This document shows, piece after piece, positions 3,873 through 7,556 of a stretch of DNA of 64,000 nucleotides. The notes below the pieces were generated by a model. That model had not been told where the DNA came from. It saw only the letters and a list, made by a program, of their open reading frames with translations, and ran no database searches. The stretch comes from Halocatena halophila (GTDB lineage: Archaea; Halobacteriota; Halobacteria; Halobacteriales; Haloarculaceae), in assembly GCA_027563145.1 (NCBI GenBank), contig CP071306.1, forward strand, positions 2,294,001 through 2,358,000, read 5' to 3'. A program made the translations under genes and the position numbers. The stretch's first letter is position 1. Each line of letters begins with the position of its first letter.

Positions 3873-4007
3873 ATTCAGTCATTGTATCGCGTCTACTCCT
3901 TACTTTCGCCCCTAAAATAATCTGTAATCGAACCTTCTATCTATGGCACATTTACTAACTTCAATCTAGAAAAATTGACATGTATCCTGAACTAACCAAC
4001 AACGTTA

Positions 4008-4034
4008 ACAAATATCATGGCATACCTATATGAC
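4008..4034 (+). promoter_or_regulatory. candidate promoter of the 476-aa gene
   Basis: Two AT-rich TATA-like stretches precede the gene: ACAAATATC (about 4008-4016) and CTATATGA (4026-4033). The first would place a transcript start near an in-frame ATG at 4035. The second would place it near 4055, giving a short leader ahead of ATG 4080. Which one is used decides whether the upstream stop codon discussed for the gene matters. Confidence 0.4.
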
Positions 4035-4079
4035 ATGAGGCAGACATGAAGGTCGCTGATCCGAACTCTTGCAGGAGCT

Positions 4080-5510
4080 ATGACCGTTTTCGGAGGAATC
4101 GATGGTGGAGCGCTAGCAGCTTCATCTACCGGTACCGTTAATATAGATAAAAAACAACAATCTGGTCTCTATCAGACCATGCAACAGGAAGGATATACAA
4201 CACTTCCAGGACTATGTTTTACAACACTGTACTCTCATCTTCCTCAAATACTCAATCAGAGTCGTCACCAGCCGGTTATTTTCATCGACACATATGATTA
4301 TGAGCGGTTGCGCGGACAAGCTGTGCGACAACGAGACAATGAGTACGCACAGATTCGTGCGATGATCACAGAGACTCTCCAACAGCAAGGGATCATCCGG
4401 GTAATCGACTATTCACGCTTCTACTCTGCTTCGAAAAAAGAGCGGTACCTGCGCCGCTACCGGAGAGCGCTTGAATCGCTCTCGGAGCACGAGAACCAAA
4501 GAATCGCAAGCCAGGCCCTTGATGGCTACGCTCAATTCGGCCGGGGAAGCTACGCACGGGCGTTCCGAGAAGCCTTGGACAACTGGGATATCAACAAAGA
4601 CAAACTCAGGCAACTACGATCTCATCAAGACCGGATCGAGCGCGGGCTTGCTGATCCCATCCAATTCAACGAGGATCTTGCGGCACAGTATCTCGCGGCA
4701 CTGGCCGTTCGAGAGGGAGCTAACAGGTACTTCGACGGAATCAATGTTGTCGGCACTATTGGTCAAGGTGAGCAAGAATCCATCGCAAACGTACTTCGTG
4801 AGACTGATGTCCCAATTAGTGATGATGTGCTCGGACTGAGTTCGAGCGGACAATCTCTTCGGACAGTTGGCCGCCCCAGCATCGAAGAAACAGCAGGCTA
4901 TCACCGCGTTTTCGAGGCAGTCAAGACCGCTGCTCAAGAGGCATTAGACGTCCAGCACAACAATTGGTACACTCTCGGCTCCCGATTAGCAGTCCCATTG
5001 CACTCAACTCTCTTTGCTGGCACTAGCCTCTCCAAAGTTGAACAGAATCCACAGGAAATAGCTAAGGAAACGAAACAGGTCCTCGACCGTCTCGATCAGC
5101 GCGCCGAGACGAACCAAATAGAACATATCCAATACCAGGCTGAGCGGATCGCAGAGGAACACGAAATGACGAACCAAACGACAAACAAGATAGAGAGCCA
5201 ACTCAGGGAAGCCGCGAACCTCGCCAACTTTTCCGACGATATCTACGAGTTGCAGGATACAGGAGATTATTCTTCAGAAGCGTTATTCACGGCAGCTGCG
5301 ATAAAAACTGATCCGCACCACCGACAGAACACAGATGCAATTCATCGACGAGCTGAGTCGCTCCAACGCTGGCTCTCGTCGGTCACAGCACCCGATCATG
5401 AGCTGACAGACTATTTTGACCGGGCAGACTTCAAACGGAAAGAAAAAGATCGAAGTAGAACCAACGGATTTTGGGTCTTTTCCCAGCAGCAACGAGCAAT
5501 TTCAGGCTAA
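4080..5510 (+). CDS. unknown 476-aa protein, possibly a Tat-secreted protein with a disrupted signal
   Basis: I do not recognise this protein. From ATG 4080 it begins with a short hydrophobic stretch (MTVFGGIDGGALAAS), then a mixed globular region with VIFIDTYDYERLRG near residue 66, a very basic helix around residues 115-130 (KKERYLRRYRRALES), and a long helical, Gln/Glu-rich region (about 320-400) that could form a coiled coil. In the same frame an upstream ATG (4035) encodes MRQT-stop-RSLIRTLAGAM, so the N-terminus resembles a Tat signal whose first Arg codon (CGA) has become TGA. ATG 4080 is the first start after that stop. AGGAG lies only 2 bases before it, which is too close for a normal Shine-Dalgarno site. 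The gene converges with and overlaps the next one by 4 bases. Confidence 0.7.
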   Translation: MTVFGGIDGGALAASSTGTVNIDKKQQSGLYQTMQQEGYTTLPGLCFTTLYSHLPQILNQSRHQPVIFIDTYDYERLRGQAVRQRDNEYAQIRAMITETLQQQGIIRVIDYSRFYSASKKERYLRRYRRALESLSEHENQRIASQALDGYAQFGRGSYARAFREALDNWDINKDKLRQLRSHQDRIERGLADPIQFNEDLAAQYLAALAVREGANRYFDGINVVGTIGQGEQESIANVLRETDVPISDDVLGLSSSGQSLRTVGRPSIEETAGYHRVFEAVKTAAQEALDVQHNNWYTLGSRLAVPLHSTLFAGTSLSKVEQNPQEIAKETKQVLDRLDQRAETNQIEHIQYQAERIAEEHEMTNQTTNKIESQLREAANLANFSDDIYELQDTGDYSSEALFTAAAIKTDPHHRQNTDAIHRRAESLQRWLSSVTAPDHELTDYFDRADFKRKEKDRSRTNGFWVFSQQQRAISG

Positions 5511-6490
5511 CGTCCCTTGTTATCGAGTTCTCCAAACATTAAGCTGACATCTTCAGTTTGAGGTTGTATCATCCACGTCAAATCGAGAGGGGTATCTTCG
5601 TCGTATTCTTCTCGTAGACGTACCGCTTCTTCAACGAACTCCCCAACGGTCACCGTGTTCGAAAGCGTTAAGACTGATTTATTCCCCAGTTGGTACTCGG
5701 GGACGATTGCCATTTTGTCTGATGCGGTATCGACCGTGAGGGGTATTCCACTGTTTTGAGTGGGAGGGGAAGCGATGAGCTGGTCCTTGGCCGACGAGGG
5801 TTCCCATACCGGTGGATCATCCCCACGCGTATTTCCCACGGATTTTATAACCTGTTCGATAAATCGTTCCTGTGCCTCGCCTTTGTCAGTGAGTGTTACT
5901 GTTGCATCTTCAAATATTATAGAACCAGCTTCTGCCAACTTTGTTACTTGTTGTCGAACGTGCTTTCGCTCGACTGTTTCCCCACGTTGATCCTGACGTG
6001 TACGAACATCAGAAATGATCGTAGAGAGTTTAACTGGCTCTTGCTTGAGAAGATCGATCTGTTCACCGACAGAATTATTCACGCCAATTGAATGAAAGAC
6101 TAAAAATGAGAGTGGCCCACGAGCAGCAGGTAGTGGATCGAGACATCTCTCTACCTCTGCAAGTTCGGCATCTTCCTGCCAGTCAATACTCGCAAGAGAT
6201 ACTCCAAGGCGATGTAGCAGAGAATCGATCTCCCCATAGATCTCAGAGCCTACAGTAGTGAGCGTGTTATCTGGTTTGTTGACAATTGGTGTTGGGAGAT
6301 TGCTAAGTGTCGTTAGATGCTTTGAGATCAAGGATGAGGAACATCCTAGCTCTTCTGCCATCTCAATTTGAGTGTCATGACCATCCCCCAAGACCGCCAG
6401 TGTTGCCAGTCGTGTCGCGGTTAAATACTGGATAATTTCACCAGCTTCGATTATTAACTTCGTTTCCCTTTCGGGACGTTCGGCAGACAT
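5507..6490 (-). CDS. winged helix-turn-helix regulator, accessory type
   Basis: The 327-aa protein has an ArsR/MarR-like DNA-binding region at its N-terminus (about residues 20-100: RLATLAVLGDGHDTQIEMAE, then recognition-helix-like CSSSLISKHLTTLS). A second winged-helix-like region follows (about 125-225), with HVRQQVTKLAEAGSIIFED and a TLTDKGEAQERF wing. The C-terminal 90 residues are acidic and unassigned. It probably acts as a transcriptional regulator in the cytoplasm. It is convergent with the 476-aa unknown gene (stop codons interlock in CTAA at 5507-5510) and divergent from the TFB operon, so either could be its target; this is inference. Confidence 0.75.
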   Translation of the reverse strand: MSAERPERETKLIIEAGEIIQYLTATRLATLAVLGDGHDTQIEMAEELGCSSSLISKHLTTLSNLPTPIVNKPDNTLTTVGSEIYGEIDSLLHRLGVSLASIDWQEDAELAEVERCLDPLPAARGPLSFLVFHSIGVNNSVGEQIDLLKQEPVKLSTIISDVRTRQDQRGETVERKHVRQQVTKLAEAGSIIFEDATVTLTDKGEAQERFIEQVIKSVGNTRGDDPPVWEPSSAKDQLIASPPTQNSGIPLTVDTASDKMAIVPEYQLGNKSVLTLSNTVTVGEFVEEAVRLREEYDEDTPLDLTWMIQPQTEDVSLMFGELDNKGR

Positions 6491-6620: not shown

Positions 6621-6644
6621 TATAGGTGATAAACATGGGTGTGC

Positions 6645-7556
6645 ATGAACACATATTCCGTGGCCCAGTCTTGCATAAACTGCGACGGGCCAGTTGAAAA
6701 AGACCCAAAACACGGTGAGAAGGCATGTGCAGAGTGTGGCGAGATACTTAGTGACAAAGAAATTGATCACGGACCCGAGTGGCGCTCGTTCAGCTTCGAA
6801 GAGAGTCAGCAGAAATCTCGCGTCGGCCCGCCAACGGGTCGATCACTCCACGATCGTGGCCTGTCGACCACGATCAGCTGGGCTGACAAGGACGCGAACG
6901 GAAACGTCCTGCCGGCGCAGAAGCGCCGGCAGATGAACCGGCTTCGAACATGGCATTTTCGCTCTCAGACGCCTGACTCGAAACACCAGTATCGCAAACA
7001 GGCACTCGGAGAGATCGATCGTATGGGCTCAGCGCTCGGTCTTCCAACGGATGTCCGCAAGACAGCAGGAGATATCTTCCGGCAGGCACACCAGAACGGA
7101 ATCGTGGTTGGTCGATCAATCGAGGCAGTCGCAGCGGCTGGGCTGCATATCGCCGCCGCAATCGCTAGCCTCCACCGAACTCTTGACGAGATTACCCACG
7201 TCGCTCGTGTCGAGCGGACAGCCATCGCACGGGCAAAACGCGCAATCAACGCCGAATTCAATCTCGCGCTCGAACCCAGTCACCCATCGACATTTCTGGA
7301 GCGGTTTGGATCGGAGCTCGATCTGAACGCAAAATCTATCCAGAAAGCACGGGCGGTGCTTGAATCAGCTCCTGAGGAGTATCTCGGCTCGGGAGCCAGC
7401 CCCGTCACCATTGCGGCCTCTGCACTCTATCTCGGAGATAGACTCACCGGCGGACCAGCAGTCACCCAGCAGGAAGTCGGAGACTGTTGTGATATCTACG
7501 ACAGGGTGATCCAGAACCACTACCCACAGCTCGAAGCGTTCTACGAGGTGCGCTGA
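6645..7556 (+). CDS. tfb: transcription initiation factor IIB (TFB), accessory copy
   Basis: The 303-aa protein has the TFB plan: an N-terminal zinc ribbon (CINC near residue 9, CAEC near residue 28), a B-finger/linker region (GPEWRSFSFEESQQKSRVG), and two cyclin-fold repeats (about 105-200 and 205-300). TFB binds TBP and the BRE and recruits RNA polymerase to the TATA box. Haloarchaea carry several TFBs, and extra ones rewire subsets of promoters. This copy sits in an AT-rich accessory island and heads a compact operon: the next gene starts 2 bases after its stop. That suggests a dedicated initiation factor for local or mobile genes, which is inference. Confidence 0.92.
   Translation: MNTYSVAQSCINCDGPVEKDPKHGEKACAECGEILSDKEIDHGPEWRSFSFEESQQKSRVGPPTGRSLHDRGLSTTISWADKDANGNVLPAQKRRQMNRLRTWHFRSQTPDSKHQYRKQALGEIDRMGSALGLPTDVRKTAGDIFRQAHQNGIVVGRSIEAVAAAGLHIAAAIASLHRTLDEITHVARVERTAIARAKRAINAEFNLALEPSHPSTFLERFGSELDLNAKSIQKARAVLESAPEEYLGSGASPVTIAASALYLGDRLTGGPAVTQQEVGDCCDIYDRVIQNHYPQLEAFYEVR

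Follow-up and report, generated by a model that had tools for sequence, protein, structure and literature searches.

A stop codon at the twin-arginine motif of a haloarchaeal gene that may encode exported and cytoplasmic forms of one protein

The window, i.e. the whole 64-kb stretch of Halocatena halophila DNA analysed, harbours on its forward strand a reading frame that opens at ATG 4035-4037, continues with AGG, CAG and ACA, meets a TGA stop codon at 4047-4049, proceeds with AGG TCG CTG ATC CGA and then reaches a further ATG at 4080. Translated from ATG 4035, it gives M-R-Q-T-TGA-R-S-L-I-R, in frame with the 476-codon ORF that starts at ATG 4080. The initial annotation had described this arrangement, with the TGA as codon 5, and its coordinates and reading were confirmed from the sequence. 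The preceding in-frame stop codon upstream of ATG 4035 is TAA 3993-3995, and no other in-frame stop follows the TGA until TAA 5508-5510. On the basis of the sequence and of the Arg codons found at the TGA position in relatives (see below), we consider segment 4035-4049 (forward strand) to comprise the original start codon within a stretch of four codons (MRQT) that the TGA terminates.

Most of the frame, from 4179 to 5510 on the forward strand, corresponds to a core protein of 443 open codons, as delineated from the ORF, an alignment and a structure model. Its 3' end is overlapped by 4 bases by a convergent partner gene (5507-6490, reverse strand) for a protein of 327 residues of the helix-turn-helix (HTH) type, an assignment based on homologues behind other family loci and on HTH matches below the curated cut-offs. 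This partner gene is intact and open. Just beyond it, a gene for TFB (archaeal TFIIB) is found at 6639-7556.

The gene with the TGA belongs to an unnamed haloarchaeal family, of which this genome harbours seven copies, two of which lie on contigs C3 and C4, respectively, plus one weak partial match. Within the genus, 6 of 7 genomes have members, as do 6 of 97 relatives and 5 of 391 genomes drawn from the class, each count including the genome of the window. Among the 7998 candidates sharing most words with the window protein, the nearest relative is P0002, with 88% identity, and P0003 and P0004 reach 77% and 74%, respectively. P0011 was the one new relative added by two additional protein searches. 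Of two scans of genome contigs, the first yielded none and the second a single locus. The queries used brought up no relatives among viruses or phages. On plasmids, two records were matched, at 28.9% and 27.3%.

Domain signatures did not identify the family. The window protein matched nothing over the curated cut-offs in Pfam and NCBIfam, its best E value in PHROGs was 0.93, and its one match in PADLOC was to HEC-01B (E 0.0017 over 51 residues). When the 35 rows of the family alignment (A1) were searched, Pfam gave scattered weak matches only, none of them shared by more than 2 members. Five matches up to E 1 were obtained from PDB sequences with a profile, the best one (0.0035) to a designed-looking short chain, and Foldseek found no match at E 0.001 against the PDB and viral models. 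In the structure model, the first domain has a mean pLDDT of 89.6 and looks Rossmann-like. It weakly resembles cyclodipeptide synthases, tyrosyl-tRNA synthetases and PIN domains, with Z scores in the range of common arrangements. We considered a cyclodipeptide-synthase or PIN-nuclease function but did not adopt it. A TraB-like resemblance was also considered, but none of the matches obtained pointed to it.

Comparison with the relatives reveals what the TGA interrupts. All 20 of the other signal-bearing loci examined have an Arg codon at the position of the TGA and another immediately after it, the window alone among the 21 loci harbouring a stop codon; as these 20 loci were chosen as signal-bearing by the presence of RR, the count makes the window an exception within the signal-bearing class and is not proof that every member of the family has a signal. 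Ten further loci and L016 are devoid of the extension and start directly at the core. The Arg codon at the TGA position is CGN in 18 of the 20 loci, three of which have CGA. The motif of the relatives is (T/S/P)RR, its first Arg coinciding with the TGA; P0003 and P0004 begin with M-(T/A)-Q-T-R-R-S-L-I-K. The claim of the initial annotation that the TGA replaces an Arg of a TRR twin-arginine motif is therefore borne out by the homologues, even though the window gene as written does not encode a twin arginine, the TGA standing in for the first Arg. Separate support was obtained from a profile of the 35 relatives, in which the row of the window itself started only at ATG 4080. This profile matches the window from base 4035, with '1 TGA' inside the match, indicating that the stretch upstream of ATG 4080 is homologous. 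The relatives are conserved there, and do not simply begin at the equivalent of ATG 4080 with nothing conserved before it, the situation that the initial annotation had opposed to its own reading.

Downstream of the TGA, the rest of a twin-arginine-type signal, RSLIRTLAGAMTVFGGIDGGALA, extends over 4050-4118 (forward strand) to a possible ALA-AS cleavage site, which was placed by eye. It is homologous to the signals of the relatives, and its uncharged run falls in the family range, with 12 residues after RR in the window versus 12 to 24 in 24 family rows. Three intact rows (L006, L018 and L021) also have runs of 12 residues. The Asp residue that had been thought to weaken the signal reading thus leaves a run that is ordinary for the family, and we rejected it as a sign of decay. 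Altogether, these comparisons support the view that the sequence surrounding the TGA is a twin-arginine signal conserved in the family, with the TGA at its first Arg.

We also looked for relaxed selection on the window signal, but the test did not show it: the window stands at 5 of 13 for differences from P0002, versus 1 of 13 for P0003 compared with P0004 (Fisher p 0.16). For two pairs of orthologs, we compared the non-synonymous share of the extension with that of the core and found it not to be lower (6/15 versus 53/244 changed codons). Of note, the L004/L014 pair displays 2 synonymous changes in 46 extension codons versus 94 in 436 core codons, and in these loci a GGAG sequence is found 8 bases before the internal ATG. 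The few synonymous changes and the GGAG may mark a regulatory element inside their extensions. Among the rows of A1, the pI of signal-bearing members ranges from 5.0 to 9.6, which is high for haloarchaeal proteins, with a value of 5.8 for the window, the signal-less members being more acidic (4.6 to 6.0).

As the TGA is known from one assembly, we weighed the possibility of a base error, in which case the strain would have a sense codon and an ordinary exported protein. A single base change would suffice, and the signal downstream is within the family range; against this, the gene has no other disruption, and the database call of P0002 starts at the equivalent of ATG 4080 and not at an upstream TRR start, as would fit a stop codon shared by the two genes. 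The latter argument is weak, since gene callers shorten intact copies too: the call of P0008 starts inside an open, TRR-bearing frame, which indicates that start calls in this family are unreliable. All in all, an assembly error appears improbable.

Recoding would represent another way to preserve the exported form, the TGA being read through into a signal that is in frame and of the family type. However, in this genome, which is 94.6% complete, no tRNA-Sec match exceeded the Rfam cut-off of 47 bits (best match 39.9), and the four weak matches are Ser, Arg, Arg and His tRNAs. Moreover, 0 of the 20 comparable loci have a stop codon at the TGA position. Selenocysteine readthrough is unlikely, and we give recoding of any kind hardly any credit.

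Next, we addressed how the locus might be transcribed. From the regions preceding the starts of 23 loci, a 15-base motif of consensus ATCGACAAAATTATC was learned, the matrix leaving out L007, L012, L014, L015, L019, L026, L035 and L036. It resembles the haloarchaeal BRE (CGAAA) and TATA (TTWT) elements. The best match in the locus, ACCAACAACGTTAAC at 3995-4009 (forward strand), is a promoter motif of the BRE/TATA type common to the paralogs, 40 nt before ATG 4035. It scores 12.0 bits, as computed with the window's own site omitted from the matrix, and it occupies the place where most paralogs have their motif. On both strands of the 64-kb window, five places including this one reach at least 10 bits. 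The strongest match to the family motif in the window (14.7 bits) is at 6065-6079 on the forward strand, antisense inside the HTH partner gene. In Haloferax, 72% of the protein-coding transcripts are reported to be leaderless (PMC4983044). Together with this habit, the motif at 3995-4009 predicts a transcript from approximately ATG 4035. The initial annotation had named a start at or after 4050 as evidence against its reading, and the predicted start lies before that position. The TGA would therefore be inside the message, and translation would end after four codons.

A GGAG sequence (4074-4077) precedes ATG 4080 by two bases, making segment 4074-4082 (forward strand) a possible, though non-conserved, restart site. 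Ribosomes stopping at the TGA might restart at ATG 4080, 30 nt downstream, in which case the main product of the gene would be a protein of 476 residues without RR. In addition to the GGAG, the database call of P0002 from the equivalent Met is consistent with this alternative, and there is a precedent in Haloferax volcanii, in which termination-reinitiation has been established at pairs of overlapping genes and does not depend on a Shine-Dalgarno motif (PMC6728339). Here, however, the stop and start codons do not overlap, and the spacing of the GGAG is short. In the close alignment, moreover, the codon at 4080 is a Leu codon in six rows and an Ile codon in one, the window and P0002 being the sole rows with Met. 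Restarting at this codon is thus possible, but as an account of the main product we find it rather unlikely. Among the outcomes proposed in the initial annotation, a restart at ATG 4080 is feasible but involves a non-conserved codon, and rescue by readthrough, if through selenocysteine, is not supported by the tRNA search.

A better conserved start candidate is found farther downstream. The internal Met codon at 4179-4181 (forward strand) is the start of a predicted cytoplasmic form. After removal of P0009, L014 and L019 as duplicates, 18 of the 23 remaining signal-bearing rows have a Met located three to five residues ahead of the core, versus 23 Met among 1154 other extension residues, which corresponds to a binomial value of 1.7e-18 that ignores kinship; identity to the window is as low as 26% among the rows counted. 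The codon is absent from positions -3 to -5 in L007, L012, L025, L026 and L027; L025 and L027 have a Met at -8 and -10, and the other three are without it. In all 9 signal-less rows of the alignment, Met is found five residues before the core, at the position where these rows start. P0011, which was found afterwards with L017 as the query, harbours both TRR and the internal Met, and database entry P0001 starts at ATG 4179. In the structure model, residues 1-33 are of low confidence and the fold starts at residue 36, just after the internal Met, so that a short form initiated at ATG 4179 would hold the whole fold. An inverted repeat, TGGTCT-CTATC-AGACCA, is present at 4163-4179, abutting the internal ATG and including its first base. 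Internal starts are common in Haloferax, with 1153 found, 51% of them with a recognisable promoter (PMC4983044).

We therefore examined the region upstream of the internal Met for a promoter. A weaker copy of the motif, ACCGGTACCGTTAAT, is present at 4128-4142 (forward strand), 51 nt before ATG 4179. With 8.5 bits, it is the second-best match in the locus, and several paralogs display a match in a comparable location. When the 25 codons that precede the internal Met were recoded with synonymous codons, the promoter-like score of the actual sequences was higher than that of the recoded ones, with a combined p of 2.6e-4 for the -56 to -36 range, which was picked after a first scan, in 14 of the 21 signal-bearing loci, namely those with a Met near the core (L007, L012, L014, L019, L025, L026 and L027 being left out). 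When the third-position AT content was matched to its local value, the combined p for these 14 related loci was 5.7e-4. Control positions gave nothing below 0.051 (25 positions) or, with AT matching, below 0.105 (15 positions). Taken alone, the window is not significant in either test (0.19 and 0.30). Within the 14-locus set, L023 and L035 have no inner motif, and the distance between motif and Met varies from about 42 to 54 nt. An inner promoter before the internal Met is plausible but no more than putative.

Phylogenetic analyses of the cores showed how the signal is distributed in the family. In a tree of 34 cores, without P0009, the nine signal-less rows form one side of a single branch (support 100/98), and the window groups with P0002, P0003 and P0004. 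With midpoint rooting, the signal-less rows are nested among the signal-bearing ones, which, if this root is correct, would mean signal loss. One signal-less member, L016/L038 (G004:C4), harbours an in-frame TAG in its core, and L016 was kept out of the protein set for that reason. A convergent gene homologous to the HTH-type partner is found behind 17 of 21 signal-bearing loci and behind 0 of 11 signal-less loci (within about 1.5 kb per locus, and less for L030). The signal-less clade thus has neither signal nor HTH partner. With a TGA in its signal and an open partner gene, the window copy is without signal yet keeps the partner.

These observations also bear on whether the window copy is simply a decaying allele, that is, one of seven paralogs hit by a nonsense change, yielding little or no useful protein and heading toward a pseudogene. 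With six other copies in the genome, it might be dispensable, and the TAG-containing core of L016/L038 indicates that other family members may be disrupted. However, no stop interrupts the 476 remaining codons, the partner gene is itself intact, identity to P0002 is as high as 88%, and the comparison of signals described above did not show extra decay of that of the window. We regard plain decay as unlikely, although it comes first among the alternatives.

The window copy has probably lost the exported form, as judged from the conserved motif that the TGA interrupts. Our best explanation, to which we give about an even chance of being right, is that the family is a nested dual-start one, and that the window copy has lost the long, likely Tat-exported form and retains a shorter, cytoplasmic form made from ATG 4179. 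In the relatives, the long form would be exported by Tat. In the window, the outer promoter would still be used, transcription beginning around 4035 and translation of the outer message ending after MRQT at the TGA. The short form would be made from ATG 4179, either by way of the motif at 4128-4142 or by a restart downstream of the TGA. A single stop codon would thus suffice to turn the window copy of a nested dual-start gene cytoplasm-only. A broader proposal, which we put forward as a tentative one that may well be wrong, is that the family generally encodes its protein twice, as an exported form through the outer promoter and as a cytoplasmic form through a promoter embedded in the linker codons, and that its members move between compartments. 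The window copy would then have just become cytoplasm-only by one stop, its inner gene untouched.

If the nested dual-start explanation is correct, the TGA amounts to a natural experiment in which two forms of an archaeal protein are uncoupled, the exported one being gone and the inner one left. Export versus retention by nested starts would then be testable in an archaeon, in a family where clades with and without the signal, as well as a convergent regulator-like gene, are available for comparison. It would also follow that a start call at 4080 or at 4179 conceals the broken signal from annotation. A literature search in general terms, the family being unnamed, found no haloarchaeal gene with both an exported and a retained form.

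Related arrangements are nevertheless known. In Shigella, the virF gene yields two proteins from one gene by means of a leaderless mRNA (PMC5101355). The shorter of the two is translated from a leaderless message internal to the gene, as proposed here. In contrast, VirF is a bacterial regulator without an export signal, and no homology to the window gene is claimed. With respect to export, Tat is the major route in haloarchaea (39-55%; PMC2945643). The signals of the relatives resemble haloarchaeal Tat signals of the non-lipoprotein type, with RR after T/S, a short uncharged stretch and a small-residue cleavage site, whereas a stop codon takes the place of the first Arg codon in the window gene. 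In the aligned family signals, no Cys lipobox was seen. Finally, internal transcripts that yield shorter proteins were reportedly described in haloarchaea by ten-Caten et al. in 2018. The proposed arrangement is similar, in that a shorter in-frame protein would be translated from a leaderless message whose promoter lies within the coding sequence. It differs in that the two forms encoded by the window family would be distinguished by an export signal, and in that a natural stop codon would remove the long form only.
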